From positions 1-64,000 of the forward strand of contig JAHJEG010000022.1 in the NCBI GenBank assembly GCA_018825665.1: a stretch of DNA of 64,000 nucleotides, given 5' to 3'. The stretch's first letter is position 1, and each line of letters opens with the position of its first letter. Positions 8,111 to 27,531 of the stretch are shown here, piece after piece. Origin of the DNA: a bacterium. GTDB lineage: Bacteria > Campylobacterota > Campylobacteria > Campylobacterales > Sulfurimonadaceae. The notes below the pieces were generated by a model. That model was not told where the DNA came from, ran no database searches, and was given only the letters and a program-made list of their open reading frames with translations. Position numbers and translations under genes: made by a program.

Positions 8111-10178
8111 ACAGGATAATATTGACTTTCATAAAGAATATATCAACACATTTAATTTTAATGGTAAAGATCAGTTACTTCTTTTAAGTAGTATAAAAAA
8201 TATGAACTTTCCTGGTGCAATAATTCCCACAGAAAGTAATTATTACATCTGTGCTAATTCGCAAAAAGATTGGAGTGTTTTAAGTTCTTTGGTTAAGTCG
8301 TTTGTAGGAGTGTCTTACTCTGATTTTATAGGTATGAAAAGTGAACTAAATACTGGTAGTAAGGAAGAAAAATATCTTCTTTCAAAGAACATTTTATTTA
8401 TTTCTTCAATATCAATTCCTAATGATGATCTTTTACAAGGTAATGCTCTAAAAGCATTTCAGACTTTATATACTACTTATTCTTATTCTCCTGGCAGATC
8501 AATAGAGATGTCAGAATATATAGATAGTGTTTTAGAAAACTTTGTTACTGCTTTACAAATAAAAGATATCGATACAGCTCAAAAAATTATTTTAAATATA
8601 AAAAATGAAAATAGACTTGACGCATTAAATATTAAATTCATGCAAATCGAATTAGCATATAGTATAAATGATTGGAATGCAATTGTTAATGATAATCTAA
8701 TAACACATATCATTAACTCTAGAAAGCCTTTAAAAATAAGATTACATATAATTGAAGCATTCTATTATGAATATTTGGAAGATGCTATTGATGATTCCTC
8801 TCTTATGGTTATTTACATAAGTAAAATAAGATCAATGATTTCAAGCTTACTCTTTAAGTGCCCAGCAAATGCAAGTATTGCGGTTAAAAAAGTATATGCA
8901 ATCGCTTATTTGAACGATGACATAGGATACAAGGAAATCGAGAGAATAATAGTACATATAGATAATGGATTATTTAAAAATGAACTACAATTATCTTTAA
9001 ATAAAAAGTTAACAACTGATGGCCCTATAAAATCAGATACTAATACTTCACATGATGATTTTATATCAGCAAGAGCTGCTGTAATTGATGATAATAATGC
9101 AAATACTATAGAAACACATATGTTAGTAAGCACTAAGGCTGAAAATCTAGATAAAAAAGAACAACTAGAACTATTAATAGACGACATAATTATTGAAAAT
9201 ACCACTCTTCCAATAAATTGGATAGAGTGGTTAAAAGCTCTGTCAAATGAAAATTTCACAAAATCAAGGTTTATAGCTGAACAAGCATTGGAAGAATGGC
9301 CGGTTGATGAACTTTTAAGGGATACTACGGATATTAAAACTATTTCTAGTGTCATAATATCAATTGAAGAAGAATTTGCCCTACAACGTTTTATTCATTC
9401 ACTTCCATTATTTATGGAAGCATGTAAAAGAAGTACATACTTTCCTAATCCTTTATTCTTACAAATGTATACATCTATATTAGAGATTATTACAGTTCAT
9501 GAAGTGAAAGATTTAAATACATTACTAGTATCTCAAGATATAGTAGAAACTTCATTGAAAATTTCTCCAAGTGAAGATCAGTACAACTATATTTTATCAA
9601 TGGTTGAGAGTATTATCGATAAAGCGAATGGCAAAAATTTCATTGATTGGTTCTTAGACTATGCAGAATTATTGATTTCTGAAAATACTAGTGATATGGA
9701 TACTAGAAATAAGTTATTAGAAAAACTACTGGTTAAAGTGTATTCTTATAGAGAGTGGCTAGATGAGTTCCATCTTAAATTTATTCTTAAACTCGCTGCG
9801 AACATTGGTATAGAAAAGTTGTTTGAAAATATATCATTTGAAGATGATATGATAGTTGAAGATAAGTGGAATAAATACATGAATAAAACTATTGGCATTT
9901 ATACATTATCAGAAAATGCAGCTCGTCATGCAAAAGAATATCTTGAAGAGCAGATTAACGATGTGAACATTATTCTTAATCACGATAAAGCTGCTACAGA
10001 TGCTTTAAGAAATTTAGCAAATACTTCTGATTTTGTCGTTTTAGTTACTCAGTCTGCGAAACATGCAGCTACTGGAGAAATTCAAAAGATACTACGTCAA
10101 AAAGATAGACAACCTCTTTTTCCTATAGGAAAAGGTTCCTCTAGTATTATTTCATCATTGTTAAAGGATTTAACATGA
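8085..10178 (+). CDS. dpdD: Probable DpdD
   Basis: A 697-residue soluble protein, acidic and helical, whose middle reads like degenerate tetratricopeptide-type repeats; no catalytic motif is evident. It overlaps dpdK by 26 nt if the first ATG (8085) is used. The in-frame ATG at 8094 is better placed behind GGGGATGAG and may be the real start. Its stop overlaps the start of the SMR remnant (ATGA). Length and operon place suggest DpdD, a protein of the restriction phenotype in Salmonella. There dpdD lies with the modification genes, here with the helicase and nuclease. The family call is inferred from context. Confidence 0.5.
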   Translation: MRLMLYQNKQDNIDFHKEYINTFNFNGKDQLLLLSSIKNMNFPGAIIPTESNYYICANSQKDWSVLSSLVKSFVGVSYSDFIGMKSELNTGSKEEKYLLSKNILFISSISIPNDDLLQGNALKAFQTLYTTYSYSPGRSIEMSEYIDSVLENFVTALQIKDIDTAQKIILNIKNENRLDALNIKFMQIELAYSINDWNAIVNDNLITHIINSRKPLKIRLHIIEAFYYEYLEDAIDDSSLMVIYISKIRSMISSLLFKCPANASIAVKKVYAIAYLNDDIGYKEIERIIVHIDNGLFKNELQLSLNKKLTTDGPIKSDTNTSHDDFISARAAVIDDNNANTIETHMLVSTKAENLDKKEQLELLIDDIIIENTTLPINWIEWLKALSNENFTKSRFIAEQALEEWPVDELLRDTTDIKTISSVIISIEEEFALQRFIHSLPLFMEACKRSTYFPNPLFLQMYTSILEIITVHEVKDLNTLLVSQDIVETSLKISPSEDQYNYILSMVESIIDKANGKNFIDWFLDYAELLISENTSDMDTRNKLLEKLLVKVYSYREWLDEFHLKFILKLAANIGIEKLFENISFEDDMIVEDKWNKYMNKTIGIYTLSENAARHAKEYLEEQINDVNIILNHDKAATDALRNLANTSDFVVLVTQSAKHAATGEIQKILRQKDRQPLFPIGKGSSSIISSLLKDLT

Positions 10179-10519: not shown

Positions 10520-11815
10520 ATGAATAATTTGAATGGTTTTTATAGTCAATATTCAGGTAAATCTGAAAAATGGGATACAAACATTGAAGGTTTATTAGAA
10601 GACGTAAATACAATTCTAAAGAATAAATATGATACTTTGGATATTATAGCTCAGGTTGGGCTATTTTTAGATAAGGATGAAGAACAGCTTAAAAATTATA
10701 TTGAAAATTTCGCTATACATTATACTTATAAAAGAATATTTAATAAAGCAAATAAATATTTTCAAAAAAACAAACAAGTGTATATTGATGATGAGTTTGA
10801 GTTTAAAGAATCTTTTCAAGAATATATAAAAAAATCTTTTGATTTAAATGATTACTCACATTATAAAAAGTTTTCTAATAATTTACTAAATGCTATTTTA
10901 AGTAATGAAATTTTAGAAGATTCAAAGTTTGAAAAAGGAAGACCTTCTACTAGTGAAAATAAAGCAATGAGAAGTTTTGCCGTAAAAAATAAAAGAGAAA
11001 ATTGTTATTTATGTGGAATAAAAACAGAAAAAAAGAATGAAAAAGGTGCTATTGATTTTTATAATTGGCATTTAAAAAATACAACTGATTTCTCAAAAGA
11101 AGTTTATACTAATTTTAATGATATTTTACATGAACATAATGATAAATTAAAAAAAGAGATTTTAAAAAAAGTTGAAAGAGAAAAAACATTAAAAGATGAT
11201 CTTCTATTTCACTTAAAAAGAAAAATACCTGTCCTTTATCTGAAAATAAGTCGTTTTTTTAGTTTAAATGATAACGAAACAGATATAAATTATAAATATT
11301 TTGGAATTAATAAAAAAACAATAGGCAAATTATTTAATAAAGTTTCATTAAATGATTTTCACAATGAGTTTAAAAAAGCTTATGCAAAACATAATAATAC
11401 TTTAATGAAAATTGAACACTGCATTGCTGTTGATTGGGGTGGTGGTAAAACTGAAGATAATTTATTAATAAGTTGTCATAAATGTAATCAAAAAAAATCA
11501 AATACAGTTTTTTTTACAGAATATTCTATTAATAAATTCTTTATTAACGAATTTGAAGCAGAAAAGGCAAAGCAAGCATTTACTGGAACACTTGGAGATG
11601 AAGCGTTAATTTCACTGAAAATTAAACAAAAATTTAAATGTTCAGATTGTGAAAAAAATTTTTCAGATATTGGTTCTTTTTATTTAAGAAGAATTAATGA
11701 AGATGATGGTTATCATTACTTAAATACATTGATAACTTGTAAGAAATGTTTAGAGAAATTTAATAAACTTGGTAATAAAGATTTTTTTGATGAGTTTATA
11801 AAAATAAAGGAATAG
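10520..11815 (+). CDS. HNH endonuclease with extra zinc-binding cysteine pairs
   Basis: A 431-residue protein with AAGGAG six bases before its ATG. The middle holds an HNH/McrA-like core: IEHCIAVDWGGG, then DNLLISCHKCNQKKS, giving the H, N and H positions with a CxxC zinc pair. An earlier CYLCG and a later KCSDCEKNF...ITCKKC pair suggest a second zinc ribbon or a degenerate second HNH. The N-terminal 150 residues are helical and unrecognised. It sits two bases before a DGQHR gene and is read with it. A DNA nuclease of the defence island is likely; whether it serves the Dpd system or is a separate module cannot be told from sequence. Confidence 0.72.
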   Translation: MNNLNGFYSQYSGKSEKWDTNIEGLLEDVNTILKNKYDTLDIIAQVGLFLDKDEEQLKNYIENFAIHYTYKRIFNKANKYFQKNKQVYIDDEFEFKESFQEYIKKSFDLNDYSHYKKFSNNLLNAILSNEILEDSKFEKGRPSTSENKAMRSFAVKNKRENCYLCGIKTEKKNEKGAIDFYNWHLKNTTDFSKEVYTNFNDILHEHNDKLKKEILKKVEREKTLKDDLLFHLKRKIPVLYLKISRFFSLNDNETDINYKYFGINKKTIGKLFNKVSLNDFHNEFKKAYAKHNNTLMKIEHCIAVDWGGGKTEDNLLISCHKCNQKKSNTVFFTEYSINKFFINEFEAEKAKQAFTGTLGDEALISLKIKQKFKCSDCEKNFSDIGSFYLRRINEDDGYHYLNTLITCKKCLEKFNKLGNKDFFDEFIKIKE

Positions 11816-11816
11816 T

Positions 11817-12971
11817 ATGGGAATAATTGAACAAATTGAAGATAGCAAATATAAATATGTTAGTAACAATGGGATCTTATTAAATCAACGTGATAGTTGT
11901 AATTTTAAGATTTTCACTTTTAAAGAAAAAGTTTCTAATGTAATGAAGTTTACTAATGTAACAAGGCAGGCTGATCAATCTAAAACAGGTTATCAAAGAA
12001 TAATTAATCCAAATCGAGTTAAAGCTATTGTTAGATATTTAGATGCCAATCCAAATAATATTATCCCAAACAATATAGTAATTGCATTAACAAAAGACGA
12101 AATGACTTCAAAGATTGATAGTGATCAGTTAGCTTTTGAATTTGATATTGAAAATAACAATAAACAAGCTTTAATAATAGATGGACAGCATAGACTTCAT
12201 GCTATAAATACGTTTGATCCTGATGAAGAGGTTTTGATTACAGCGCTAGTAAATATAGATGTATTAGAACAAGCCATACAATTTATAACAATTAATACAA
12301 AGTCTCAAAGTGCAGCAAAAACAGATGTAAAGTCTGTCTTAAATGCTGATTATTATCAAAATATTTTAACTGATAGATTATCAAATGCTGGTATAACAAA
12401 TTTAAAAACATCAACAGTTTTAGATTATTTTCATAAAAGTATTCACAGTCCTTTTAAAGGATATTTAGATTGGCAACTTACAGAATCTCCAAATGATAGA
12501 ATAATACAATTAAATGCTTTAGAACAAATAGTTAAATTATGCAAAAACGAAATAGAAGAATTTAATGAAGATGAAGACACAATTATATTCTTTTTGTCTG
12601 TATTATGGAAAGAACTAAAGAAAAAGTATAGCGCTTGTTGGGAGCTATCTATATCTACTCAAAATAAAGAATCTAATTTATTGAAAAAATCAACCATAAT
12701 AGGTGTAACAGAATATTTTATTCAAGAAGCCATTTCAGCTAATGAATATTCTGAGTTTTTTGATTTTAATGATATAACAGAAGAGAGTATAAAGAAACTT
12801 TTAGAAAGAAACTTATTTCATTTAATTAATGATTTTTGGAATGCAAATTGGGAAAAAGGACTTGACACTTCAGCTGGTAGAGCGATGCTGAAATCATCAA
12901 TTAGAAAAACGATAGACAATATAAAAAAAGGCAAAGATTGGTCAGAAAAAGTTGATTTAATTCAAAAATAG
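11817..12971 (+). CDS. DGQHR-domain protein partnered with the HNH nuclease
   Basis: A 384-residue protein with the ParB/DndB-like signature IIDGQHRLHAIN at residues 120-131. It is preceded by the usual NPNRVKAIVRYLDANP helix and followed by INTKSQSAAKTDV, matching the INKTKPLPK block in DpdB proteins. AAGGAA lies five bases before the ATG. It has the classic His in DGQHR, whereas both DpdB-like proteins of the modification arm have DGQQR, so it is a separate branch. DGQHR proteins include DndB and DpdB, which act with DNA modification enzymes. Pairing with HNH suggests a sensor or regulator for the nuclease (inference). Confidence 0.72.
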   Translation: MGIIEQIEDSKYKYVSNNGILLNQRDSCNFKIFTFKEKVSNVMKFTNVTRQADQSKTGYQRIINPNRVKAIVRYLDANPNNIIPNNIVIALTKDEMTSKIDSDQLAFEFDIENNNKQALIIDGQHRLHAINTFDPDEEVLITALVNIDVLEQAIQFITINTKSQSAAKTDVKSVLNADYYQNILTDRLSNAGITNLKTSTVLDYFHKSIHSPFKGYLDWQLTESPNDRIIQLNALEQIVKLCKNEIEEFNEDEDTIIFFLSVLWKELKKKYSACWELSISTQNKESNLLKKSTIIGVTEYFIQEAISANEYSEFFDFNDITEESIKKLLERNLFHLINDFWNANWEKGLDTSAGRAMLKSSIRKTIDNIKKGKDWSEKVDLIQK

Positions 12972-13030: not shown

Positions 13031-13609
13031 TTAATCAACTCCTAAAAACTTATGGGTTTGAACACTTAGACGAAACTTAGGGTAATGTTTCACTACTTCT
13101 ATACAATGGGTTATATTTGTCATGTTTGGAGTATGTACATAATTCTCAGCTTGTATAAAAATAGGTTGCTTAATATCTAAATCTAGAAGAGGTTGGATGT
13201 TAGAATTAATGTTTACAATGCATTTAAGTTCATTAAAGCCTGTTGTATGAATATTATTCCAATCTTTTGGACTGTATGTAATCCAATCGGCCTTTTCAAT
13301 ATTTTCGAACTTATATCCATTTGATTCTATTGAGACGGTATATCCATGTGATTGCAATAAACCTATAAACTCATTAAGATCATATATGGACGGTTCACCA
13401 CCAGTTATAATTATGTCCATTCCTGGGTATTGTTTAATCTCTTTTAGAATTTCTTCATATGTATATGAGGTATATTTATCTGTGTGTAATAAATCATCAC
13501 AAAATGAACATTCTAGATTACAACCGTATAGACGTATAAAAATTGAAGGTATACCAGTATTAGTAGCTTCACCCTGTATAGAGTAAAAAATTGTTGTTAC
13601 TTTTAACAT
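13031..13609 (-). CDS. queE: 7-carboxy-7-deazaguanine synthase
   Basis: A radical-SAM enzyme of 192 residues. It converts 6-carboxy-tetrahydropterin to 7-carboxy-7-deazaguanine, the second-last step to preQ0. The Cys motif is at residues 30, 34 and 37 (CNLECSFC), preceded by the QGE...G.PSIFIRL segment typical of QueE. ITGGEP and the C-terminal RLSVQTHKFLG block are also typical. It is the last gene of the modification operon, its ATG overlapping the queC stop by one base (TAATG). It converges on the DGQHR gene with a 59-bp gap. Confidence 0.93.
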   Translation of the reverse strand: MLKVTTIFYSIQGEATNTGIPSIFIRLYGCNLECSFCDDLLHTDKYTSYTYEEILKEIKQYPGMDIIITGGEPSIYDLNEFIGLLQSHGYTVSIESNGYKFENIEKADWITYSPKDWNNIHTTGFNELKCIVNINSNIQPLLDLDIKQPIFIQAENYVHTPNMTNITHCIEVVKHYPKFRLSVQTHKFLGVD

Positions 13610-14331
13610 TAGTTATGTATCTCTACAAAATACTCATTTATATCAGGAATAGTATTTACTGCAAATTCTTGTCTCTCTATGCATGCATCGCATTTATTGC
13701 ATGGAACAAATAAGTTTTGCTCTTTTTCTTGTGGTTCATAACAAGTCCATGTAAGCTTATATGGAACATTTAAATTTTTCGTAGTTTCAATAATTTTTTC
13801 TTTTGTAAAATCAACGAACGGTGCATCAACTTCTACGGTAATTGCATCATTTAGTCCAAAAACTATCTTCATTGCGTTAGCAAATTCAGGTTTTATGTCC
13901 CAATATTCTTTGTATGTTGTGTGTTTATGTATACCAAGACATAATTCTACTCTTTCTAAGTCTTCTGCTAATGCATAGACTTCTCCAAAAACACCTGCAA
14001 GTGCAAAAAAGAGCATATTTCTATTTGGAAAATAAAAGTTAAGTTCTTCTAAGTTTTTATTGTTAAAACCATTATTTCTAAAATCTTCAACTTTCTCTTC
14101 AAAACTTTTAAATGTACTTGACAAGTCAATTACTGTAGTGTCCTGTAGTTGATTAGGATATTTTTTTTTATAATAATCTATTATATTCTTTTGACATACC
14201 ATTTCAACAACATTTCGTTGACCATAATTAACATTAATAGGTAATACATGATAGCCTTGATCTAGCTTATATGCAAGTAGTGTTGTACTATCTAGTCCAC
14301 CACTATGACTTATGACTGCAATTTTTTTCAT
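13609..14331 (-). CDS. queC: 7-cyano-7-deazaguanine (preQ0) synthase
   Basis: A 240-residue PP-loop ATPase that makes preQ0 from 7-carboxy-7-deazaguanine, ATP and ammonia. The PP-loop SGGLDS is at residues 10-15, and NVNYGQRN follows as in QueC. The C-terminal zinc site is CNKCDACIER with an upstream Cys in the TCYEP segment. GAGGAAA lies upstream of the ATG. Its place between the second dpdB and queE shows that the cluster brings its own preQ0 supply rather than relying on a chromosomal queuosine pathway. Confidence 0.95.
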   Translation of the reverse strand: MKKIAVISHSGGLDSTTLLAYKLDQGYHVLPINVNYGQRNVVEMVCQKNIIDYYKKKYPNQLQDTTVIDLSSTFKSFEEKVEDFRNNGFNNKNLEELNFYFPNRNMLFFALAGVFGEVYALAEDLERVELCLGIHKHTTYKEYWDIKPEFANAMKIVFGLNDAITVEVDAPFVDFTKEKIIETTKNLNVPYKLTWTCYEPQEKEQNLFVPCNKCDACIERQEFAVNTIPDINEYFVEIHN

Positions 14332-14347: not shown

Positions 14348-15415
14348 TTAAATTTGAGACATTAGATAGTGTGTTAACATTGAAATATCTTTGTTAACAT
14401 TTTGAATATCTAAAGCATCTCTAAGCATCCCATTTCCAAAGTCCCATTTACCATTGCTCCAACTACACTTTTTACCTAGTGCTTCAATGTATGGTAAAAA
14501 ATCTTGTGTGATGTAAAAATCTTTTTCACCAATTTTATGTATAAGTTCTTCCATAACAAAACTAAGACCTATTATTCCTGCTCCATGTGTCAAACGTGTC
14601 TTTTTAGGATCAAGTTTCCAATCATCATTAAATACTTGAGCAACAGCGCCCCAATAAGCATACAGAATTGATACCATTCCTTCTATATCTGCTTCTGCAT
14701 TTCCTGTAATAATATTTGCTGTGTAATTAAAGAGTACGCCATCTTGTAGACTATGATTGAAAGCCTTTATAAGAGTATTATCTTTGATAATACCATCTGG
14801 ATTTGTGTGTGTTTTTATCTTTTGGTAAAAAGGTGAGTCTTTTCTAGAATTAAGTTCTTGAATTAAAAGCATTGGTATGCGTTTTTCAGCTAAACTTTTT
14901 GGTACTTCAACATCTACATCTGGAATTAGTTCATAAATTAATGATTTAGGAAGAGGTTTTGTATTATTTACAAGTATAAATTGCTCTTTTTGTTCATGTG
15001 CATCATTAGTTATAAATGCATTTATAACCACTTCAAAGTTTTCTTTAGTTATTTTTGAAAGGGCTGTTACACGTTGTTGTCCATCAACAATCCATCCATT
15101 TTTTTCTTCACTTATTGGAATATTTAGATATCCAAAGCCACTTGTTGCATCAATAGGTTCAAATGTTACATTACTATCAAAGCATATAACAATTGAATTA
15201 GTTAATATAGCATTGTCACTATCAAGATAGTTTGTAATCTCTTCAACATGTTTAGATACAGTTATACGCTGATAACCTTCTAACGTTCCGTCTTCCATTC
15301 TTTTAATTCTTGAAATAGATGCAAAGTCTAAAACATTTTTTCCATTTGCTTTAAATGTATATATTGTTTTATTACCTTGTTTTATTTGTAACGCCGGATA
15401 TCTTACTGTACTCAT
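14348..15415 (-). CDS. Second DpdB-like DGQHR-family protein
   Basis: A 355-residue protein with WIVDGQQRVTALSK at 108-121, a KHVEEITNYLDSDNA helix before it and VNNTKPLPKSLI after it. It aligns nearly end to end with the 374-residue protein on the other side of dpdA (shared blocks: ISRIKR, EITNYLDSDN, WIVDGQQR, TKPLPK, SILYAYWGAV, HGAG) but with clear divergence, so the duplication is old. It overlaps dpdA by four bases (ATGA) and is followed 16 bp later by queC. DpdB assists DpdA in inserting preQ0; two such proteins might form a heteromer or give different target specificity. Confidence 0.75.
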   Translation of the reverse strand: MSTVRYPALQIKQGNKTIYTFKANGKNVLDFASISRIKRMEDGTLEGYQRITVSKHVEEITNYLDSDNAILTNSIVICFDSNVTFEPIDATSGFGYLNIPISEEKNGWIVDGQQRVTALSKITKENFEVVINAFITNDAHEQKEQFILVNNTKPLPKSLIYELIPDVDVEVPKSLAEKRIPMLLIQELNSRKDSPFYQKIKTHTNPDGIIKDNTLIKAFNHSLQDGVLFNYTANIITGNAEADIEGMVSILYAYWGAVAQVFNDDWKLDPKKTRLTHGAGIIGLSFVMEELIHKIGEKDFYITQDFLPYIEALGKKCSWSNGKWDFGNGMLRDALDIQNVNKDISMLTHYLMSQI

Positions 15416-16644
15416 TTATTTTGTCCTTCTAATAGTTCGTCTAACTCTCTCATAAATTGCCATAGATTATGAAAACCTCTTCGTCTGTTTCGATTTGAGT
15501 TTCTAAAAATAGCCACTTCCACACCAACATCTTTACATATCTCACATTGACAAGTTTTCCAATATTTAGCTTCTAGTACTTGACGGTAACGCTCTTCTGG
15601 AATTTTATCTTTAAAAAGTTTTTCATAGCTTATGACTTTTGATAAAGCTTCTTCACGTGAAATTTCTCCTCTATCATAAGACCTAATAGCATTAAGTGAT
15701 TCTTTCTCCATTTTTTGAGCATACTCTTGAGATAATAGACCTGAACTAATTTTTCTTTTTAATGCTGCTGTTCCATCAGATGATGGTACACGAATAGCGG
15801 TGTAATGCTCTTTTGGTGAATAGTAATTGAATTTACTGTCTTTAAATGCTCTAATCAATGGAGATGTTGAATCAAAACTTGTAATATCATATTTCACAAA
15901 TCTATGAAGTTGTTTAGCTTTTGCAAATCCAAAAAGATGTATTTTAATCTCTTTAGGGATAGCTTTCCTTACTGCTGCAATAATTTCTTCGCATTGATCT
16001 ACATCGAGTGGTACTAAACCTCCAATCCCTATATATTTATAACCCATTTCAACTAAACTTTTTGAGGCCTCTTGCATACTCTTTGGAGACCATGCTTGTA
16101 CAGCACCAATAGGTTCAAATAAAGCTTCTTTGTCTTTAGATATACGAATAAACTCTTTAGCATTGTGAAGGGTAATATCATATCTACTTTTCATATCATC
16201 ACTAACAACAAAATCATCATTTTCATTATCAAAACGTGGATCGTACTCAAAAATAATGTGATCCACAGATACAGCATGTGTAAAACCACACTGCATATAA
16301 TACTCAACCATTTCTTCATTATTATATGGAGGCTTTTCTAATTTTGCATAGCTAAAAGCACCACTATCACCAAATATTGGTCCATTTGAGTATCTTAAAA
16401 ATCTACTTGCACCTTCTCGCTTAAAACGCTGAGATTGCATAATAGAATATGCGCCTGCTGTTTTATAAACACCATCAGCTAAAATAGCACGAGATACTAG
16501 CATGCCATCATAAGGTTTTTTTTCAAACATTTCATGTGGATATCTATCTGTTCGTTGTAAAACACGATCTTTTGAATATGCATCTTTTTCAAAATCATAA
16601 CCAGGATCAACAAAGTCCTGACTATCAGCAAAAATAAACTTCAT
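15412..16644 (-). CDS. dpdA: DpdA, DNA-guanine transglycosylase
   Basis: A TGT-like enzyme of 410 residues that exchanges guanine for preQ0 in DNA. TGT landmarks are present: GDSGAFSY with Asp93 (the DSGG-type general acid site), SFDST with Asp258 (nucleophile position), GIGGLVP near 206-212, and a zinc site C365-x-C367-xx-C370 with His392. The N terminus (FADSQDFVDPGYDF) is DpdA-like rather than tRNA-TGT-like, and no PUA domain is present. One-base overlap with the upstream gene and four-base overlap with the downstream gene place it at the centre of a coupled operon flanked by two DpdB-like genes. Confidence 0.9.
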   Translation of the reverse strand: MKFIFADSQDFVDPGYDFEKDAYSKDRVLQRTDRYPHEMFEKKPYDGMLVSRAILADGVYKTAGAYSIMQSQRFKREGASRFLRYSNGPIFGDSGAFSYAKLEKPPYNNEEMVEYYMQCGFTHAVSVDHIIFEYDPRFDNENDDFVVSDDMKSRYDITLHNAKEFIRISKDKEALFEPIGAVQAWSPKSMQEASKSLVEMGYKYIGIGGLVPLDVDQCEEIIAAVRKAIPKEIKIHLFGFAKAKQLHRFVKYDITSFDSTSPLIRAFKDSKFNYYSPKEHYTAIRVPSSDGTAALKRKISSGLLSQEYAQKMEKESLNAIRSYDRGEISREEALSKVISYEKLFKDKIPEERYRQVLEAKYWKTCQCEICKDVGVEVAIFRNSNRNRRRGFHNLWQFMRELDELLEGQNK

Positions 16645-17768
16645 TAAAAACTCTTCCTATTAATATCATCATACACTTTAATTATATGTCTAGCTAATAT
16701 TCGCTTATGAGCTGAAATATTTTGAAGCTCATTCCATTCTAGATCAATCTCTTCCCATCGTCCTTCAGTCCAATGACAAAAAGGTTTTATTTTCTCAAGT
16801 TCCTTAACAATTCTATGCTCAGATTTAATGTCTTTAGGATTTATATTTCTCATTATCAAGTCCATTAAACCACCCATTGCATGCATACCAACACCATGCA
16901 TTAATCTACTTTGAGCGGGAGGTATAGCCCATGCTTCTGGAAATACTTTTTTAACTGCACCCCAATAAATATATAGTATTGATAGCATGCTTTCATAGTC
17001 TGTGTCGTGACCATCAGGATCTACATATGGGTATAAACATCCTGTATAGTTTCTAATAGATGTTTTTAAAATATCTATAATAGAATTATGAGTAATTATA
17101 GGGCTAAATCTTTCATCATCTTCAGTTGAAGTTTTTTTAATTAATCCATAAAAAGGTGATTTAGGTTCGAAATTAAGTACTTCTGTAATACGAGATGGGA
17201 TTAGCCTTGTACTTAAATCTGCTGGTAAAATAGATGTTACTGTTGGTAATAATTCATCTATTAAACCTTTAGGAAGAGGTTTTGTTTTATTAATACGAAT
17301 AAATTGTTCACGTTGTACTTCTAAGTCTTTCGCGACAAAAGCAGTAATAGGTATAGGTAGTTTTGGTTTATTACATTTAGATAGAGCTAAAGCTCGTTGT
17401 TGACCATCAACAATCCATGCAGGTTTAAATCCATTATCCATTATAGGTATCTCTAAGGTCCCAGCAGTGGAGTATCTGTCAGAATCAATTTTAGGACCAC
17501 GTATTTTTGTAAAGTGTATCTCTTCATTTATAGCTAAAGTTATAGCATTTGGAAAGAGAACATTATCAGTATCTAAATATTTAGTAATCTCATTGACATG
17601 CTGTTTAACTTCATTTCTCTGTAAGCCGACTAACTTACCTTCTTTATCTCTTTGAACTCTAGAGATATCAGCAATCTGCAAAATATCTTTTGCCTCTAAA
17701 AAAAATGAAAATACTTCATATTTTTCAGTTTGTATTATTTTTAATGCTCTTACAATTAAACTGCTCAT
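16644..17768 (-). CDS. dpdB: DpdB, DGQHR-family partner of DpdA
   Basis: A 374-residue protein with WIVDGQQRALALSK around residues 118-131, a preceding HVNEITKYLDTDNV helix and INKTKPLPKGLI after it, the pattern of the DndB/DpdB/ParB-like fold. In Salmonella, DpdA and DpdB are together sufficient for preQ0 in DNA. The ATG overlaps the dpdC stop (ATGA), and its TAA overlaps the dpdA ATG. Which of the two DpdB-like genes is the functional equivalent of the Salmonella protein is not decided by sequence; this one lies directly between dpdC and dpdA. Confidence 0.8.
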   Translation of the reverse strand: MSSLIVRALKIIQTEKYEVFSFFLEAKDILQIADISRVQRDKEGKLVGLQRNEVKQHVNEITKYLDTDNVLFPNAITLAINEEIHFTKIRGPKIDSDRYSTAGTLEIPIMDNGFKPAWIVDGQQRALALSKCNKPKLPIPITAFVAKDLEVQREQFIRINKTKPLPKGLIDELLPTVTSILPADLSTRLIPSRITEVLNFEPKSPFYGLIKKTSTEDDERFSPIITHNSIIDILKTSIRNYTGCLYPYVDPDGHDTDYESMLSILYIYWGAVKKVFPEAWAIPPAQSRLMHGVGMHAMGGLMDLIMRNINPKDIKSEHRIVKELEKIKPFCHWTEGRWEEIDLEWNELQNISAHKRILARHIIKVYDDINRKSF

Positions 17769-18679
17769 GTTAACTCACTTTTAACTTTTTTAAATATCTT
17801 TCCAAAACGCTTTTGTTCACATGCAAATCCTGCATTTCTAAATGCTTTAAGTCCTTTAGATGCACTTGAGATATCATCTTTTAGAATCATATTTTTTATT
17901 TTAATACAAATTTCTTCTTCGGTTAGTTTTGATCTTACTGGCATATTGAATTTCTTATAGGATGCCATTTCAGTTTCAATATGATTTTGAAGTTCTCTGT
18001 GGGAAAGGGGAATGTCTTTTTTTATGATTTCGTTTGATAGCCATAACACTGCTCTTTGTAGCATATTTGATAAAACACCTGCTTGAAAATTATTAAATCT
18101 AGAATCAAATTTTACAATATTATTTTTCATAAATAGTGGAATAGGGTGCTTGTTAGCTATGAATATAAATACATTTTTATCAAATTTTTCAATCAAAAGT
18201 TTTATAGTGTCTTGTGCTGCGGATAGGTACTCATGAGGTAAAACAATAAAAAAATATGAGCCTTCTTGAAAAGAAAAGAGTTGAAATTTATTAATCATAT
18301 TCCACCATACAATATTAGCATTTTTATCTGAATTAACAACAAATTTATTAATACTATTAATTGTAGAGGAAGCAAATGTACTGTCATAAGAACATATTTG
18401 AGTTTTAGAGTGTATCAGTCCATATCCAGCAGAAGCAACATATAAATTTGTATTAAACTTAGAAGCTAAAACTGCATCAGTATCTAAAGTAGCCCGCCAA
18501 GCACCACCTTTATATAATTTAGTGGCTTCATATACTACATCTGTTTTTTTTTCAATATTTTTATTCCATATATCTATAACATCTTCCAAGTGCATGTCAG
18601 TCTTGAAACTTGCAATTTTAAATGCTTCAGAAGGAGTTTGTTTTTTACTATTAGTACATGAAGATATTATATTTATCAT
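17765..18679 (-). CDS. dpdC: Probable DpdC
   Basis: A 304-residue protein with an N-terminal domain like DUF6884/YaaA-type proteins: IISSCTNSKK at the start, LYKGGAW near 55-61, and ASAGYGLIHS near 92-101, corresponding to the SCgkkK, LYxG and SAkYGL blocks. The C-terminal 100 residues are helical with a basic finish. It is the first gene of the modification operon. DpdC is required to turn preQ0 in DNA into the amide (dADG). The assignment uses the domain look and the fixed neighbourhood with dpdA and dpdB. A 112-bp AT-rich divergent promoter region separates it from queD. Confidence 0.65.
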   Translation of the reverse strand: MINIISSCTNSKKQTPSEAFKIASFKTDMHLEDVIDIWNKNIEKKTDVVYEATKLYKGGAWRATLDTDAVLASKFNTNLYVASAGYGLIHSKTQICSYDSTFASSTINSINKFVVNSDKNANIVWWNMINKFQLFSFQEGSYFFIVLPHEYLSAAQDTIKLLIEKFDKNVFIFIANKHPIPLFMKNNIVKFDSRFNNFQAGVLSNMLQRAVLWLSNEIIKKDIPLSHRELQNHIETEMASYKKFNMPVRSKLTEEEICIKIKNMILKDDISSASKGLKAFRNAGFACEQKRFGKIFKKVKSELT

Positions 18680-18791: not shown

Positions 18792-19373
18792 ATGATAATA
18801 AGAAAATTGTTTAAATTTGAAAATGCACATATTGTTCGAGGTTGCAGCACAGTAAAATGTAGGTCGTCTCTTCATGGACATTCCTATAAGGTTGAAGTAC
18901 TATTAGAATCTAATTTTTTGGATGATGGACAAATGGTATATGACTTTGGTCTAATGAAACTAAATATAAAAGATATAATCGATAGTTTTGATCATGCTGT
19001 AACAATATGGAATAATGATGATAAAGAGTATATTAATGATATGAAAAATCATTCTGATAGATGGGTTAAACTTCCAGTATCTCCGTCTGCTGAGCAATTT
19101 AGTAGAGTTTTTTTTGTGATAATAGATAGATTGTTACAATTAACTAATACAAAAAATGGTGAAAAAGATGTTAAGCTACATAGTATTATTGTTCATGAAA
19201 CGGCAACAGGTTATGCCCAATGTTTTAAAGAAGATGCGTACTCTTTACAAATGGGAAATATATCACTAAGTGAAGTTATTTTTAGCAAAGCAGTTCAAGA
19301 TGATTGGCATGATTTATTGTTATGGACAAAAATAATTAAAAAGAAAAAGTTTATTAATCCAAAAGACGTTTAA
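18792..19373 (+). CDS. queD: 6-carboxy-5,6,7,8-tetrahydropterin synthase
   Basis: A QueD/PTPS-family enzyme of 193 residues, longer than the usual 120-140. The zinc histidines are His13 (NAHIV) and the HGH at 28-30, with Cys23 five residues before His28 as in QueD; FDHAV, PSAEQF and VHETATGYAQC complete the active site. It supplies the QueE substrate from dihydroneopterin triphosphate. It is transcribed away from the modification operon. No folE is in the window, so the first step must come from elsewhere in the genome or the unseen part of the island. About 35 C-terminal residues have no counterpart that I recognise. Confidence 0.9.
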   Translation: MIIRKLFKFENAHIVRGCSTVKCRSSLHGHSYKVEVLLESNFLDDGQMVYDFGLMKLNIKDIIDSFDHAVTIWNNDDKEYINDMKNHSDRWVKLPVSPSAEQFSRVFFVIIDRLLQLTNTKNGEKDVKLHSIIVHETATGYAQCFKEDAYSLQMGNISLSEVIFSKAVQDDWHDLLLWTKIIKKKKFINPKDV

Positions 19374-19561: not shown

Positions 19562-20245
19562 ATGGAAAAAGAAGAACAACTAAAAACTAGTGCAGAAAAC
19601 AACTCGAATGACAAACAATATAATTTTGAAGATGAACTAGGCTTAACTCAAGATGAAATTAAAATTATTGAATATTATAGACGTTTATATACTGGCACTA
19701 TTATTATGGGTCAGTATCATACTAATGTGTATGAAGATTTAAGGACATCATTAGAATCATATCACAAAGAATGTTTAGAACATGCAAATTCCAACTCTAA
19801 TCCTATACAGTTTAAAGACTGGGATGATCTTTCTACTATTTTCAATAGTGAAGATAAAGCAGTTGGAACAATATTTATTTTTAATCATTTGAATAAAATA
19901 GATAATAGCATAGAAGAAAGATTGAAAAATACTAATAAAGATGGTCAATTATTTAAGGCGTTAACAAAGCTTGAGAATATATATTTGGAGCTTAAAAATA
20001 TAGTAGCGAGCAGGGATATTATAAAAGATTTGTTAATAGAAATATTTGAAAATATTCCAAATTACAAAGAGAAGCAAGAATTAATTTCAAAACTGAATGA
20101 AAATATACTAGTAGAAGCCAGTAAAATTACTCAAGTTTTTCAACATATCGACAATGTAAATGATATTAATTTGAAAGATATTTATGGAATTGACGGTAAT
20201 GGTCCTATGGCAAATGCTATTAACGAGATCAAACCTTTTCAATAA
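19562..20245 (+). CDS. Hypothetical protein at island edge
   Basis: A 227-residue, acidic, helical protein that I do not recognise, with no signal peptide or membrane segment. GGAGA six bases before the ATG at 19562 favours this start over the ATG at 19550. Codon use is as AT-rich as the Dpd genes. It is the last gene before base composition rises to the chromosomal level, so it belongs to the island; a link to Dpd function is not shown. Confidence 0.6.
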   Translation: MEKEEQLKTSAENNSNDKQYNFEDELGLTQDEIKIIEYYRRLYTGTIIMGQYHTNVYEDLRTSLESYHKECLEHANSNSNPIQFKDWDDLSTIFNSEDKAVGTIFIFNHLNKIDNSIEERLKNTNKDGQLFKALTKLENIYLELKNIVASRDIIKDLLIEIFENIPNYKEKQELISKLNENILVEASKITQVFQHIDNVNDINLKDIYGIDGNGPMANAINEIKPFQ

Positions 20246-20365
20246 TAAGAACTAGTTTTATAGGTTCAAAATGTTGGTGTCCCTTTTCAAAATTAATCAA
20301 ATTTTATCAGGTTTGAAACCATTTGTTGTAAAAAAATGTTGTAAAATTTTAGAGTCACAAAGATA

Positions 20366-20387
20366 ATAGCCCTTAAAATAGGGCTAT
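20366..20387 (-). terminator. Terminator of the DUF445 gene, at the island boundary
   Basis: A perfect 8-bp stem (ATAGCCCT / AGGGCTAT) with a six-base loop, overlapping the stop codon of the DUF445 gene. Read on the - strand it is followed by a T-rich stretch (TATCTTTG), as for an intrinsic terminator. Confidence 0.6.
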
Positions 20388-21094
20388 ATTAAGAAAGAAG
20401 AGATTAAACCAATTAGTCCACCAAAGACTCCGCCCCAAACTACCAGCCATGAGAGGTGTTCTTTGATGAGTTTTTGAACCATCTCTTTTACCATTGCGGG
20501 GCTTAGTTCGTTTAATCTTGCATCTATCACATTTTCAATCGATTGAAGCATGTCATCGCTCAAAGAAGAATTTTGCATATGGCTTTGCAAAGTTTGGTTA
20601 AACTCCTGTGTGGTGACTATTTTTATAACAGCGCTTCTCATCTTTTGCGAAAAGGGCTCTCTTAGACCTTCAAGCGCTTTTTCTCCGCCAAACATACCCA
20701 GCATTCCGCCAAAAGAGGATTCCATAACAGTCTTGCTCAGTGCATCAAAGGCCGGTGAAAAATCAGTTTCTTCTATGATGGGTACAAGGTCTATCTTCTT
20801 TTCTTCATTTTTAAAAAAATTGTCAAGCTGTTCTTTTGTAAAAAACTCACTCATCATAAGCTTTTTTACGGCTTCTTTAAAGGCTTCAAATCGTGCAGGA
20901 ATAACTCCGGAACCATAAAGAAAAGGAACCTTTTCAAAGAGCATGTGGATTGCCAGTTGGTTTGTCAAGGCTCCGGAGAGAGCGAATAAACCTGTAAAAA
21001 GCAAAAGAGAATCAAAGCTGCTATCAAGTGAGAATGAGAGGGCTATGAGAGCCAAGGCTGTAAGGTTGGTTATAAAACTTTTATTGAATTTCAA
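20384..21094 (-). CDS. DUF445 family membrane protein
   Basis: A 236-residue protein with DUF445 hallmarks: GALTNQLAIHMLFE near 40-53 and a GSGVIPARF segment soon after. Two hydrophobic helices lie at the N terminus (about 8-50) and one at the extreme C terminus (WGGVFGGLIGLISSFLI). Function is unknown in the family. It is the first gene right of the AT-rich island and has ordinary chromosomal composition. Confidence 0.85.
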   Translation of the reverse strand: MKFNKSFITNLTALALIALSFSLDSSFDSLLLFTGLFALSGALTNQLAIHMLFEKVPFLYGSGVIPARFEAFKEAVKKLMMSEFFTKEQLDNFFKNEEKKIDLVPIIEETDFSPAFDALSKTVMESSFGGMLGMFGGEKALEGLREPFSQKMRSAVIKIVTTQEFNQTLQSHMQNSSLSDDMLQSIENVIDARLNELSPAMVKEMVQKLIKEHLSWLVVWGGVFGGLIGLISSFLI

Positions 21095-21172
21095 AATAAA
21101 TCTCCTGTTTAAAAATGGAATTATACAAAAAAGGTATCATTATGCAAATATAATACCTAAAAGAGAAAAAAA

Positions 21173-21646
21173 ATGAAGCAAATAAGCTATGAGCTGTTTA
21201 AAACCGCAGATGTCAAAGAGATCGTAGAAGTGATAGAAAAAGAGCTTGGAACAAGAAATGAATCCCCTTTTTGGACGGATAAGATAGTTCCTTTTTCTGA
21301 GGCTATCTTAAGTGTTCTGATCCCTTTGCGGGATAACAGGATGCTGTTTGACCCTGAGGGAAATCCTCAGGGAGAGCTGACTCCGGAACTGTTTTTGGAC
21401 TGGAGCGATTTTGTAAGTTTGAAGAGCCTGGCGTTTACCTTGCAAAAATCAAATGTTGCAAGGGAACTGTTACGAACCAATCTGGACAAATCCACATGCC
21501 AAAAGTATGAGCAGATCGATTTGAAGCTTTTGGGAGATTACCTTAGCCGCTATACGGTAAACCTTGAAAATGAGTCGCTGGATTTTCCGATATCCAACTA
21601 TAATCTGCATCAGGGTGTCAGTAATGTAATCAAGTCACTTCTGTAA
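21173..21646 (+). CDS. Hypothetical cytoplasmic protein
   Basis: A 157-residue protein, divergent from the DUF445 gene. It has no signal peptide. A PFSEAILSVLIPLRD segment and an ELTPELFLDW segment are its most ordered-looking parts; the family is not recognised. An AGAGAAAAAA stretch precedes its ATG. A strong hairpin follows, so it is probably monocistronic. Confidence 0.6.
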   Translation: MKQISYELFKTADVKEIVEVIEKELGTRNESPFWTDKIVPFSEAILSVLIPLRDNRMLFDPEGNPQGELTPELFLDWSDFVSLKSLAFTLQKSNVARELLRTNLDKSTCQKYEQIDLKLLGDYLSRYTVNLENESLDFPISNYNLHQGVSNVIKSLL

Positions 21647-21663
21647 AAAATACCGCCAAAATA

Positions 21664-21698
21664 TACTCAAAATATCTTAAATCGATATATTTTGAGTA
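21664..21698 (+). terminator. Hairpin after hypothetical gene
   Basis: A perfect 12-bp inverted repeat (TACTCAAAATAT / ATATTTTGAGTA) with an 11-base loop lies 18 bp past the stop. It has no following T-run, so it is a transcript 3' end or partial terminator rather than a clear intrinsic terminator. Confidence 0.5.
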
Positions 21699-21770
21699 CT
21701 CCTCATCTACTTTTAGTTATAATAAAATGTATGTAAAGAACCACAAAAAAAATGAAGCAGGTTTTTGTAA

Positions 21771-23738
21771 ATGTCAAATCATTCTTTTAGCACCTTCGAT
21801 GTCTCCATAGATTTTATCCCTCTCAATGTTGCCGTATATGAGTATGTTGGTGATGGCTTTTGTATTGTTGATTTCAACACAATGGCTGAGCAGACAGAAA
21901 ATGTAAAACGGGAGGATATTATCGGCAAGCGATTAGAGAAAGTTTTTCCGGGCGTTAAGGATTTTGGGCTGTTTGATGTACTTCTGAGGGTGTATGAGAA
22001 AGGGGGCTGTGAAGACGCAGATCTGGGATTTTATGATGACGGGCGTGTCAGCGGATGGAGAAAAAACAGAGTATGCAGGCTTGAAAACGGCAATGTCATA
22101 GCACTTTACAGTGATATGACGGTTCAAAAGGATATAGAAAGCAGGCTTGAATCCTTAGGCATAATCCTGGACAACAGCATCAATGAAGTCTATATCTTTA
22201 ATAAAGAAGATTTACATTTTACCTATCTCAATAAAGCGGCGCAGAAAAATATCGGCTATACAATCAGTGAGATGCAGACCATGACCCCTGTGGATATTAA
22301 GCCTGAGTACGATTTAAAGAGTTTTTTGGAGTTGATAGAACCGCTGATGAGAGGGGAAAAAGATTTTCTTGTCTTTGAGACTGTTCATGAGAGAAAGGAT
22401 GGCACACGCTATAATGCGGAGATACGTCTTCAGAGTGTAAACAGAGGGAATACGGAGCAGTTCGTTGTGCTTACACATGATATTACGGATAGAAAAAATG
22501 CTCAGAGCAAACTGCTTGAGAGTGAAGAAAAATTTAGAAATATTGCCGAAAATGCACTTATGGGGATATTTATTTATAAAGAAAGGGGTCTTTATGCAAA
22601 TCAGGCTCTCGTTGAGATAAGCGGATATTCTACCCAAGAACTCTATGCTATGTCTCCCTGGGATTTGGTTACGCAGGAGTACAAAGAGCAGGTCAGGAAT
22701 ATATCCAAAAGGCGATTAAGGGGTGAGAAGTTCCCTCAGGAATACGAGGATATCAAGCTTGTAAAAAAAGACGGAAAAATCAGAACCGTACGCATCTCAA
22801 CGCAGACTATCATGTATGGCAATGCATATGCAGGAATGGGAACGATGATCGATATAACCGATATACAAGAAACAAAACAGCAGCTTAAGCTGTTGGCACA
22901 GGCGGTTGAACAGATGGATGAGCTTGTGCGAATCACGGACAAGGACGGAATTATCACCTATGTCAATGATGCGCTTGTGGCACATACCGGGTATAAGCAT
23001 GTGGAATTGCTGGGCAAAAAGATAGGGCTGTATAAATCAGGACTTCATAAAAAAGAATTCTACAAAGAATTATGGGAGACCATTGCATCGGGCAAGACAT
23101 TTAGAGGCGTTTTTATCAACAGAAAAAAAGACGGACAGATATATTATGAAGAGGAAACGATTACTCCCATCGTAGATGATAAGCAGAATATACAGTATTA
23201 TGTAGCAACCAGCCAGGATATTACGGACAGAGTCAAGATGGAAGAGAAACTCCATACCTTAGCTACGATAGACAGCATAACGTGTATTTACAACCGTAAT
23301 AAAATCGGTGAAGAGCTTGACATAGAGATAGCCCGTGCGAAGCGCTATGAGAGCAGTTTTGCACTGATAATGTTTGACATAGATTTCTTTAAAGCGGTAA
23401 ACGACAGATATGGTCACGATATGGGGGATTATGTTTTAAAAGAACTCTGTGCAGTTGTCTCAAAGCTGATACGTGAGAGTGACCGTTTTGGGAGATGGGG
23501 CGGAGAGGAATTTATTATTATCACTCCGATTATTCAAAAAGAGCAGGTGATGCTTCTTGCAAATAAATTAAAAGACGTCATCGCCACGCACGCCTTTAAA
23601 GAGATTAGCAAGGTAACGATAAGCATAGGGATAACTCTTCTAGGGCGTGAAGACACAAAGGAAAGCCTCCTAAAAAGAGTGGATAACGCCCTGTATGAGT
23701 CAAAAAACAGAGGTAGAAACAGGGTGAGTTTCAAATAG
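21771..23738 (+). CDS. Multi-PAS diguanylate cyclase
   Basis: A 655-residue cytoplasmic sensor that should make cyclic di-GMP. I see four PAS-like regions, roughly 12-115, 127-240 (with its VLTHDITDRKNAQ end), 250-370 and 375-490 (YYVATSQDITDR end). A C-terminal GGDEF domain follows, with GGEEF active site and the RESD inhibitory site five residues before it, so feedback inhibition by product is likely. The linker LHTLATIDSITCIYNRNKI is the usual start of the domain. There are no transmembrane segments or EAL domain. A TATAAT-like box is about 50 bp upstream. The input signal is not evident. Confidence 0.9.
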   Translation: MSNHSFSTFDVSIDFIPLNVAVYEYVGDGFCIVDFNTMAEQTENVKREDIIGKRLEKVFPGVKDFGLFDVLLRVYEKGGCEDADLGFYDDGRVSGWRKNRVCRLENGNVIALYSDMTVQKDIESRLESLGIILDNSINEVYIFNKEDLHFTYLNKAAQKNIGYTISEMQTMTPVDIKPEYDLKSFLELIEPLMRGEKDFLVFETVHERKDGTRYNAEIRLQSVNRGNTEQFVVLTHDITDRKNAQSKLLESEEKFRNIAENALMGIFIYKERGLYANQALVEISGYSTQELYAMSPWDLVTQEYKEQVRNISKRRLRGEKFPQEYEDIKLVKKDGKIRTVRISTQTIMYGNAYAGMGTMIDITDIQETKQQLKLLAQAVEQMDELVRITDKDGIITYVNDALVAHTGYKHVELLGKKIGLYKSGLHKKEFYKELWETIASGKTFRGVFINRKKDGQIYYEEETITPIVDDKQNIQYYVATSQDITDRVKMEEKLHTLATIDSITCIYNRNKIGEELDIEIARAKRYESSFALIMFDIDFFKAVNDRYGHDMGDYVLKELCAVVSKLIRESDRFGRWGGEEFIIITPIIQKEQVMLLANKLKDVIATHAFKEISKVTISIGITLLGREDTKESLLKRVDNALYESKNRGRNRVSFK

Positions 23739-23761
23739 TCTATTGCACTTTATCTTTATAT

Positions 23762-23772
23762 TTCCACATGCC
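23762..23772 (+). repeat. TTCCACATGCC word, intergenic copy
   Basis: An exact copy of the dispersed 11-base word, 24 bp after the cyclase gene and not in coding sequence. See the finding on the dispersed word. Confidence 0.8.
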
Positions 23773-23844
23773 AGACTTTTAGAATGTCTCCTTATGTTTA
23801 ATATAAATTCTATATAATAATAAAAAAATAAGACGGGCTTAAAA

Positions 23845-26800
23845 ATGAACAGATTCATAGAATATTTTATAAAAAACAAGCGTTTGAACTATATGCTTTT
23901 AATCTTTTTGGCGTACATGGGTTTCAATGCTTATGTGAACATCCCAAAAGAGCTGTTCCCAAACGTAGAGCTTGACAAGATAAGTGTGACAGGCTTTTAT
24001 GCCGGCACAAGTGCAACAACCATGGACAAGATGGCTGTACGTGATATCGAGGATGCGTTAAGCTATATCACCGGGATTGACAAAGCCGAGACGACTATAG
24101 CTCCGGGTGCTTTTGCAATCATACTGACCATCAATGAAGACGCAGACAAAATCAATGTACTCAACAAGGTAAAAGACTCCATAGCCAATTCAAAACAGTT
24201 TCTTCCATCGGATATGAATGAGCCGGTTGCGAATCTATTGGACAAGACAAGACCTTTGATCTATCTCTCTTTATCATCGAGTAAACTCTCAAGAGGCGAG
24301 CTAACCCTCTTAGCCGGCGATATCAAGTCTAAAATAGCACGGATAAAGAATATCAGCGATGTCGTAATAAGGGGTGATTCCAACGAAGAAGTCACTATAG
24401 AGATTGATTCGAGGGCTATTTTGGCCTATAATTTGAATCCGAATGCAGTTTTAAACGCTATTTCGGAACTTTCCTATATCTTTCCTATCGGAAATATTGA
24501 AGAAAAGGGAAATTTTGTATTTATATCTACGGTCAACGGAAAATCCAATGTAGAGGAATGGAAGAAAAGCATACTCAAAGTAGAGGACAAATACATAAAA
24601 CTGGGTGATATCGCAGATGTACAGATTCATTATCCCCAAACGGACACATTGGCCAGTTTCAACAACAACCCAACCCTTACCCTTGTAATATCAAAGGGTG
24701 AGGCGGGTAACTCTATTGAACTCTCCAAAGAGTTAAGAGCCTACGCGAAAAAGCTTGAAGAAAATTATGAAGGGGTGATGTTTAATTTTTATCAGGACAG
24801 TTCTGCTCCTGTAAAAAGCCGTCTTGATACGGTTATCTCAAACCTGATGTTTGGACTTATCCTGGTCTTTTTGTCCATGTACATCTTGATAAATCTTCGT
24901 ATCGCTTTTATCGTCGCCCTTGGGATCCCTTTTTCCTTTACTATAGGACTTTTGTTTATCTACTATATGGGATATTCTATAAATATAGTCTCCCTTTTGG
25001 GCGCGCTGATTGTTATCGGTATCGTCGTAGATGATGCCATAGTCGTGAGCGAAAATATTCAGCGCCATATAGATGAGGGGATGGACAATCATGAAGCGGC
25101 GATAGAGGGTGTAAAAGAGATGCTTCTGCCTGTTACATTGGCCACGGTGACCACGGTTGTCGCATTTTTGCCTATGTTTATGCTGACGGGCGAGACGGCT
25201 TTGTTCCTGGTTTTGATACCTATCGTGGTCGTGATGATTTTGACCGCTTCGCTTATAGAGAGTTTTTTATTTTTGCCGCTTCATGCCGAGGAAGTTTTAA
25301 CAAAGAGTAAAAATGTTGTGAATTGGGAACCTTTTCAGAACCTTTACATCAATGTTCTGTCATTTTTTATAGAATACAAAAAGAGTTTTATAATTATGTT
25401 CTTGGTCTTAATCCCTATTTTTACGGTGATGACGGCAAAGTCCATGAAGTTTCAGTTTTTTCCAAACTTCGACGGAAACAACCTTTATATATCCGGACAG
25501 CTTGACATCAATACTCCTATAGAAGAAACATTTGCAATAGCAAGAGAGATAGAAGCCAAAATCATGGAGCACTCTGAAGAGTTTTCTCTCAAACACGTCT
25601 CTTCAATCAGCGGATACAGAAGAAGTCTCTCCGGCGAGACGCAGAGAAACAACAATGTCTTTTATGTAACAATGGAACTTTATGACAGAAAAGAGACGAA
25701 TTTCATAAACAGATATATCAATCCTATTCTGAATTTCAGTTTTGAGTTTGACAGCCCTGAAGCTATACGGGAGAAAAAGACATTTGAACTCTCCCCCCGT
25801 CTCAAAGAGATTATTATGCCCTTTAAAGAGAAGTACAAGATGGATGAACTCGGTGTAGCCGAGGATAGACCTGGACTTATCCGCAGTGATATACAGGTGA
25901 ATCTCTCAGGCAGCAATGATGCGGCACTCGAATATGCGATCAAAAAGCTAGAAGAAAAGCTCTCAACGATACAAACCGTTTCAAACTACAGTGATAATAT
26001 CCGCTACGGAAAGATGGAGTATAAGATAAAGATTAACTCTTACGGCGAAGAGCTTGGTCTGAGTGAAGCTTCCATAGCCAAAGTCTTGAGCGGATATTTT
26101 CTTGAGGGGCGACAGGCCACCACTTTTAATGAGCGCGGCGTAATGGAGATAAAAACACAGGATGTTGCAAAAGACAGCATCAGAACCTTTTTAGACTTCA
26201 ACATCGCTCTTGAGGACGGCCGTTATGTAAAACTCACCGATGTCGCCGAAATAGTAGAGCTGCGTGATTATGAAAAAATAGATAAGCTAAACGGAAATAT
26301 AGTAAAAACGGTTTTTGCCAAGGTGGACAAACAGAGAATTACGCCCGAGGAGGTCTTATCTGAGCTTGAACCGCTGTTGGATGAGATATCCGCTTCGGGT
26401 ATAGAGGTGAATATTCTTGGAGAAAATGAAAAAAGCAAGCAGCTAAAAGATGATATGAAGGGCACGGTGATTCTCGCACTGTTTTTAATGTTGCTCGCAC
26501 TTTTGCTGATTTTCTCAAAAATAAAATATGCATTGATGGTTATGAGCGTGATACCGCTATCCATTTTGGGTGCGCTTTTGGGGCATAAGCTTTTGGGAAT
26601 GAATCTTAGTATGCCCTCTATCATAGGTATATTGGGGCTTGCGGGAGTTGTAATTAATGACGGGATTATTATGCTTGATTTTTTACACGCAACGCATAAC
26701 TCGGAGACCTTTTTCCGCCGTGCAAAATTAAGACTGCGTCCAATCGTCATAACATCAGTGACGACATTTTTGGGCTTGCTGACACTTATCTTTTACGCTA

Positions 26801-26970: not shown

Positions 26971-27050
26971 AAAGATGATAAAGCCCAAAAAAGCGAAGGT
27001 GAGTATCACTCTCAGGCTGAAAAAGAAAAGAAACTTTATAAAACCGGGCA

Positions 27051-27470: not shown

Positions 27471-27531
27471 TTTTGCTCCATATGGAAATTTAAGTGTATA
27501 ATTATATCTATAAATAAATAATAGGCTTAAA

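Follow-up and report, generated by a model that had tools for sequence, protein, structure and literature searches.

Dpd islands and their DpdB proteins

The roles assigned to Dpd proteins come from published work on a Salmonella system with one DpdB. On this model, QueC, QueE and QueD would supply preQ0, DpdA would swap guanine in DNA for preQ0 with the aid of the DpdB ATPase, DpdC would convert the inserted preQ0 further, and unmodified DNA would be restricted by DpdH-K and DpdD. DpdB is an ATPase needed for preQ0 insertion by DpdA (PMC12839542, summarizing earlier literature). Its relative DndB is a regulator in phosphorothioation systems (PMC4507180), and the conserved features of the DGQHR domain are a QR pair, DGQxR and FxxxN (PMC4619093).

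The DNA analysed here, called the window, is a stretch of 64,000 nt from a bacterium of the Sulfurimonadaceae (Campylobacterota; contig JAHJEG010000022.1), starting at base 1 of the contig. It carries a Dpd island in which dpdA is flanked by two dpdB genes, named dpdB-up and dpdB-dn after their positions relative to dpdA. The features are listed below.

1-2361, plus strand: dpdH, 5′ end missing (NF041065, 332.9 bits over profile positions 279-993 of 1014; cut-off 450)
2351-3055, plus strand: dpdI-like, restriction module (NF041066, 44.7 bits, below the cut-off of 150; flanked by dpdH and dpdJ, the E. coli arrangement)
3060-7577, plus strand: dpdJ, restriction module (NF041067, 1525.4 bits)
7571-8110, plus strand: dpdK, restriction module (NF041068, 163.4 bits, above the cut-off of 100)
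8085-10178, plus strand: dpdD, restriction module (NF041061, 323.2 bits, above the cut-off of 300)
13031-13609, minus strand: queE-like radical SAM enzyme, preQ0 pathway (Pfam Radical_SAM, 45.2 bits, and position)
13609-14331, minus strand: queC, preQ0 synthesis (TIGR00364, 114.9 bits, under the curated cut-off of 150.3)
14348-15415, minus strand: dpdB-dn, downstream DpdB paralogue, 355 aa (NF041060, 409.5 bits; outside the upstream clade); QR at 49-50, DGQQR at 111-115, FxxxN at 146-150, and a PLPKxLxYEL signature in common with the single DpdB of E. coli
15412-16644, minus strand: dpdA, DNA-guanine transglycosylase, 410 aa (NF041059, 510.3 bits; cut-off 200)
16644-17768, minus strand: dpdB-up, upstream DpdB paralogue, 374 aa (NF041060, 426.6 bits; upstream clade member, 100/100); QR at 50-51, DGQQR at 121-125, FxxxN at 156-160, and an extra segment before DGQQR with an invariant RG at 90-91
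17765-18679, minus strand: dpdC-like (DUF6884), first gene of the synthesis operon (PADLOC DpdC, E 3e-39; Pfam DUF6884, 24.6 bits, below the gathering score of 30)
18792-19373, plus strand: queD/PTPS, preQ0 pathway, divergent from the synthesis operon (Pfam PTPS, 82.0 bits)

The dpdH score falls under its cut-off because the gene is truncated by the contig end. The queE-like call is also based on adjacency to queC and dpdB, as found for genes annotated queE in plasmid records. The dpdC-like gene shares 4 nt with dpdB-up, which overlaps dpdA by 1 nt (16644), and dpdB-dn overlaps dpdA by 4 nt (15412-15415). Both DpdBs are encoded beside dpdA and preQ0 genes. The GC content is 24-32% up to base 20000, the region of the island, vs 36-44% at 20000-36000. 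Among 397 genomes from this phylum, a DpdA above cut-off occurs in the window's own and in no other, so that the island is rare there and was probably gained by horizontal transfer. The closest DpdAs, from Campylobacterota MAGs, are 62% identical.

The island resembles two described types. With the two-DpdB islands of proteobacteria, e.g. on Sinorhizobium americanum plasmid B (NZ_CP013053), in Agrobacterium vitis (CP146243) and in Comamonas testosteroni ATCC 11996, it shares the order dpdC-dpdB-dpdA-dpdB followed by que genes. It departs from them in que gene order, in the divergent queD, in restriction genes on the opposite strand, and in DpdBs that are mostly 32-48% identical to theirs. With the enterobacterial island (Salmonella Montevideo/E. 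coli type) it shares dpdA, dpdB and a gene in the dpdC position of the synthesis operon, restriction genes in the same H-I-J-K-D order, and a homologous DpdA: along its length, that of the window can be aligned with 7ui4, the solved enzyme of Salmonella type (E 5e-98). The enterobacterial island, in contrast, has a single DpdB, encoded downstream of dpdA and placed outside the upstream clade.

Identity and motifs of the two DpdBs

Both proteins match the NCBIfam DpdB model NF041060 (cut-off 300 bits) along their whole length, dpdB-dn at profile positions 2-352 and dpdB-up at 2-351, and PADLOC agrees with the DpdB and DpdA assignments. They are 36.6% identical (347 columns). The initial annotation of two divergent, full-length DpdB homologues that flank and overlap dpdA is thereby borne out. 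Chance or a frameshift artefact is ruled out as its source, both reading frames being full-length and over cut-off, and the layout recurrent. The window's own genome has these two matches over the DpdB cut-off and, besides them, one weak DGQHR relative, at 11817-12971.

The same annotation noted DGQQR in both proteins, which is correct, and took DGQHR to be the classic DpdB motif, which is not. DGQQR is universal among the strong DpdB homologues gathered (187 of 187) and is also the motif of the single DpdBs of E. coli and Enterobacter, and DGQHR, a mark of distant DndB-like proteins, is confined to 10 weak relatives; DGQQR as an unusual feature is therefore discarded. Like the DndB/DGQHR proteins of DNA phosphorothioation, the window DpdBs belong to Pfam PF14072 and carry QR, DGQxR and FxxxN. 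Unlike them, they have DGQQR and a dpdA partner instead of dnd genes, and neither matches the TIGR03233 DndB model at E 0.01. QR, DGQQR and FxxxN are invariant in the alignments of both upstream and downstream proteins, and these motifs predict that each DpdB is an active ATPase. Two features separate the types. The upstream one is longer by ∼12 residues in the stretch from the PN motif to DGQQR, where it also has the invariant RG, and a PLPKxLxY signature is present in 88 of 92 downstream proteins vs none of 88 upstream ones; the E. coli single DpdB has it.

Occurrence of two-DpdB islands

A scan of a genome collection with a DpdA alignment yielded 264 loci encoding a DpdA relative. The best 80, picked by DpdA similarity and not by DpdB number, cover Alpha-, Beta- and Gammaproteobacteria and Campylobacterota. 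Among these best 80 of 264 loci, which are not mutually independent, 77 have a DpdB directly on either side of dpdA, one upstream and one downstream, all on the same strand, three have the downstream DpdB alone, and none has the upstream DpdB alone. Both genes are named DpdB by NCBI in six plasmid records, and a 2025 preprint covering 2,335 unique windows reports dpdB as the dpd gene with the most extra copies, 801 (PMC11888242). The earlier statement that known clusters have one DpdB is contradicted by all three sources: two DpdBs per island are the norm among close relatives, and public annotation already shows this layout, so that its novelty was overstated. The preprint names Comamonas testosteroni among bacteria whose islands modify DNA (PMC11888242), and a C. 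testosteroni locus (L086), possibly of another strain than the one assayed, carries two DpdBs. The single-DpdB enterobacterial island is present in 159 of 5,426 complete E. coli genomes. In viral contigs, the window DpdA sequence alone found no match, and the DpdA alignment found five loci, one with two DpdBs. No study of the two DpdB types was found in the literature searched; an earlier description may exist, e.g. in the founding Dpd papers or a 2024 review.

Six Pseudomonas loci among the 77 (L090, L092, L093, L096, L099 and L104) encode a third true DpdB of ∼350 aa, upstream on the opposite strand, a lineage of its own that falls on the downstream side of the tree.

Two ancient lineages

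The phylogeny that had been proposed as a check resolves two anciently split lineages. A tree of 197 proteins places all 88 upstream DpdBs on one side of a single branch (support 100), and position predicts lineage without exception. A more careful tree of 48 rows gives the upstream clade a bootstrap/SH-aLRT support of 100/100, and the clade stays intact when DpdBs from E. coli, two actinobacteria, phage Mx4, Variovorax and the third Pseudomonas type are added, all of which fall outside it. The two window proteins sit in the matching lineages, the upstream one inside the clade and the downstream one outside. A recent duplication in the lineage of the window is ruled out by these trees. The enterobacterial single DpdB also lies outside the upstream clade, with a tree that joins it to that clade not rejected (AU p 0.098). 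Downstream-like DpdBs occur also singly or with no dpdA in the neighbourhood; among the DpdBs collected, none of the upstream type was found without a downstream-type DpdB and dpdA.

Selection, coupling and loss

Both copies are under strong purifying selection and are co-inherited. Median dN/dS over 83 close pairs is 0.088 for dpdB-up, 0.089 for dpdB-dn and 0.060 for dpdA, and the unconstrained evolution of one copy that would have spoken against the initial reading is not observed. Nor do single-DpdB clusters contain a fusion of both proteins: trimmed single and downstream DpdBs are 345-375 aa long, and full single DpdBs are of ordinary size (375 aa in E. cloacae, 377 aa in E. coli). Of 88 loci, 74 have a 4-nt overlap of dpdB-up with dpdA and 10 a 1-nt overlap, and the 88 loci give no indication that either copy has been converted or replaced by the other.

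The evolutionary distances of the three proteins are coupled unevenly. Inter-locus distance matrices of the two DpdBs correlate at r=0.90 (87 loci), a value to be read with one phylogeny common to all distances and one joint alignment behind both DpdB matrices. Partial correlations over 55 thinned loci are 0.65 for DpdB-dn with DpdA, 0.47 for DpdB-up with DpdB-dn and 0.01 for DpdB-up with DpdA, the last ranging from -0.15 to 0.16 in 60% subsamples; their order is stable under subsampling and removal of long branches. The persistence of two couplings and the disappearance of the third fit, as indirect evidence, a chain DpdA - DpdB-dn - DpdB-up better than DpdBs that are alternative partners of DpdA.

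The upstream copy is the one that gets lost. In Novacetimonas (L053), a C-terminal DpdB-up remnant (residues 260-371, L053:6690-6995) stands directly before an open dpdA, and the DpdB-dn frame is open. At least two que genes lie nearby in 69 of the 77 two-DpdB loci vs none of the three downstream-only loci, L053 included; the known losses of DpdB-up may thus mark decaying loci.

Structure models

AF2 models, built on alignments that exclude rows from annotated plasmid records, are confident for both proteins (mean pLDDT 89.4 for DpdB-up and 91.9 for DpdB-dn). A PDB sequence search gave no significant match for a DpdB homologue, and Foldseek of the models against the PDB gave none at E 0.001 or better; the fold assignment comes from a second look with VIA-align. 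There, the N-terminal domain of the DpdB-dn model has ParB, Noc, KorB, Srx and related chains as its top 21 rows (Z 8.7-5.3; next rows ≤4.0), and aligns with ParB chains at Z 8.4-8.7 and an rmsd of 2.4-2.9 over ∼93-97 residues. The DpdB-up model retrieves the same families with lower scores (Z 7.3-5.1). Both DpdBs are thus predicted to have a ParB/sulfiredoxin-type N-terminal domain, with the weaker likeness in DpdB-up. ParB proteins act as dimeric, nucleotide-dependent clamps on DNA, and the proposal that DpdBs form hetero-oligomers draws on this analogy.

A proposed core and accessory DpdB

The reading that best accounts for these data, with a probability of about 0.5, is a Dpd modification-restriction island of a two-DpdB type, in which a core DpdB-dn and an accessory DpdB-up are specialized helpers of DpdA. 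The DpdB function would be split over two anciently separated, non-redundant paralogues, DpdB-dn being the conserved partner of DpdA and DpdB-up acting together with DpdB-dn. By analogy with ParB, the two would most likely associate in a hetero-oligomeric, nucleotide-dependent clamp of ParB/sulfiredoxin type that loads or positions DpdA on DNA; this physical association and the division of labour are what we infer, and the heteromeric DpdA partner envisaged in the initial annotation remains the best inference. Several points weigh against it. The enterobacterial type works with one DpdB, so that the chemistry does not require a second. Truncation has removed DpdB-up in L053, where dpdA and dpdB-dn stay open, but this locus has no que genes nearby. 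The distance correlations are indirect evidence. Finally, DpdB-like proteins with no DpdA nearby (Mx4, Nonomuraea, Euzebya) suggest that DpdB may have roles independent of DpdA.

A stronger form of the core-and-accessory reading can be put forward tentatively, at somewhat less than even odds: the two lineages would be an obligate hetero-oligomeric, nucleotide-driven clamp, whose specialized upstream subunit works only with the downstream one. If so, the single-DpdB Salmonella machine would be a simplified form and not the model for most proteobacterial Dpd systems. The published modification mechanism rests on a one-DpdB island, and since two constrained DpdB lineages are the rule in the nearest loci, the role of DpdB is incompletely described.

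Among the alternatives, the one that survives best, although rather unlikely, is that one DpdB is a working ATPase and the other a regulator, serving to limit modification or to control expression. A regulatory role is reported for DndB, which is distantly related and belongs to the same Pfam family (PMC4507180), and the candidate regulator would be DpdB-up, the type that is lost and that is devoid of the PLPKxLxY signature found in downstream proteins and the E. coli DpdB. However, co-translation of DpdB-up with dpdA (1-4 nt overlap) suits a subunit better than a repressor, none of the nucleotide-binding motifs is missing from DpdB-up, and the distances of DpdB-up covary with those of DpdB-dn.

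It is improbable that DpdA alternates between the two DpdBs, each steering it to different DNA sites, the other possibility raised initially. In favour of two target specificities are the deep divergence of the two ATPase lineages, each with invariant residues of its own, and the constraint on both. Yet each paralogue should then track DpdA, in conflict with the partial correlations (0.01 for DpdB-up vs 0.65 for DpdB-dn), and some clusters should be upstream-only, as none is in the best 80 of 264; this alternative is less favoured because DpdB-up covaries with DpdB-dn and not with DpdA once DpdB-dn is controlled for. Least likely of all is plain redundancy, i.e. a duplicate kept for dosage with either copy sufficient, which accords with the single DpdB of E. 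coli-type islands and the loss in L053 but not with an ancient split in which position always predicts lineage, similar strong constraint on both copies and 88 loci with no trace of conversion or replacement.

Related genes and mobile elements

DpdB-like genes with no adjoining dpdA were seen at L030:4737-6143, L132:11962-13068, L133:11995-13140 and L134:7965-9062, the hosts being Myxococcus phage Mx4, Nonomuraea, Euzebya and Variovorax; the Variovorax gene adjoins type I-E cas genes and a DUF6884 gene. Two viral contigs carry ORFs of ∼560 aa (L138:1683-3356 and L139:2779-4476) with a strong DpdB and a weak DpdC match, possible DpdB-DpdC-like fusions.

In the window, an HNH-nuclease gene followed by a DndB-like gene with a true DGQHR motif (10520-12971, plus strand) is convergent with the synthesis operon. 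An identical arrangement of the two genes lies beside queC in an Aliarcobacter MAG (L047:9988-11886, minus strand), which suggests a recurrent accessory module of dpd islands.

The entry L029 (MT835580.1), filed as 'Bacteriophage sp.', contains a full dpdC-B-A-B-que cluster. Its DpdBs and those of Sphingomonas parapaucimobilis are identical, and relaxase-like genes in the vicinity point to a mobile element of bacteria and not to a phage. At L046:212-4776, four genes of Tn7-type appearance (TnsA, TnsB, TnsC and TniQ, judged by sequence) lie directly upstream of dpdC, and this dpd island may be Tn7-like cargo. L046 and L047 have in common a gene pair (L046:9911-12503 and L047:12505-15103; ∼597 aa and 265 aa) that is absent from the window. 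The larger gene contains DSAHRH in both copies, and its L047 copy counts as a weak DGQHR relative.
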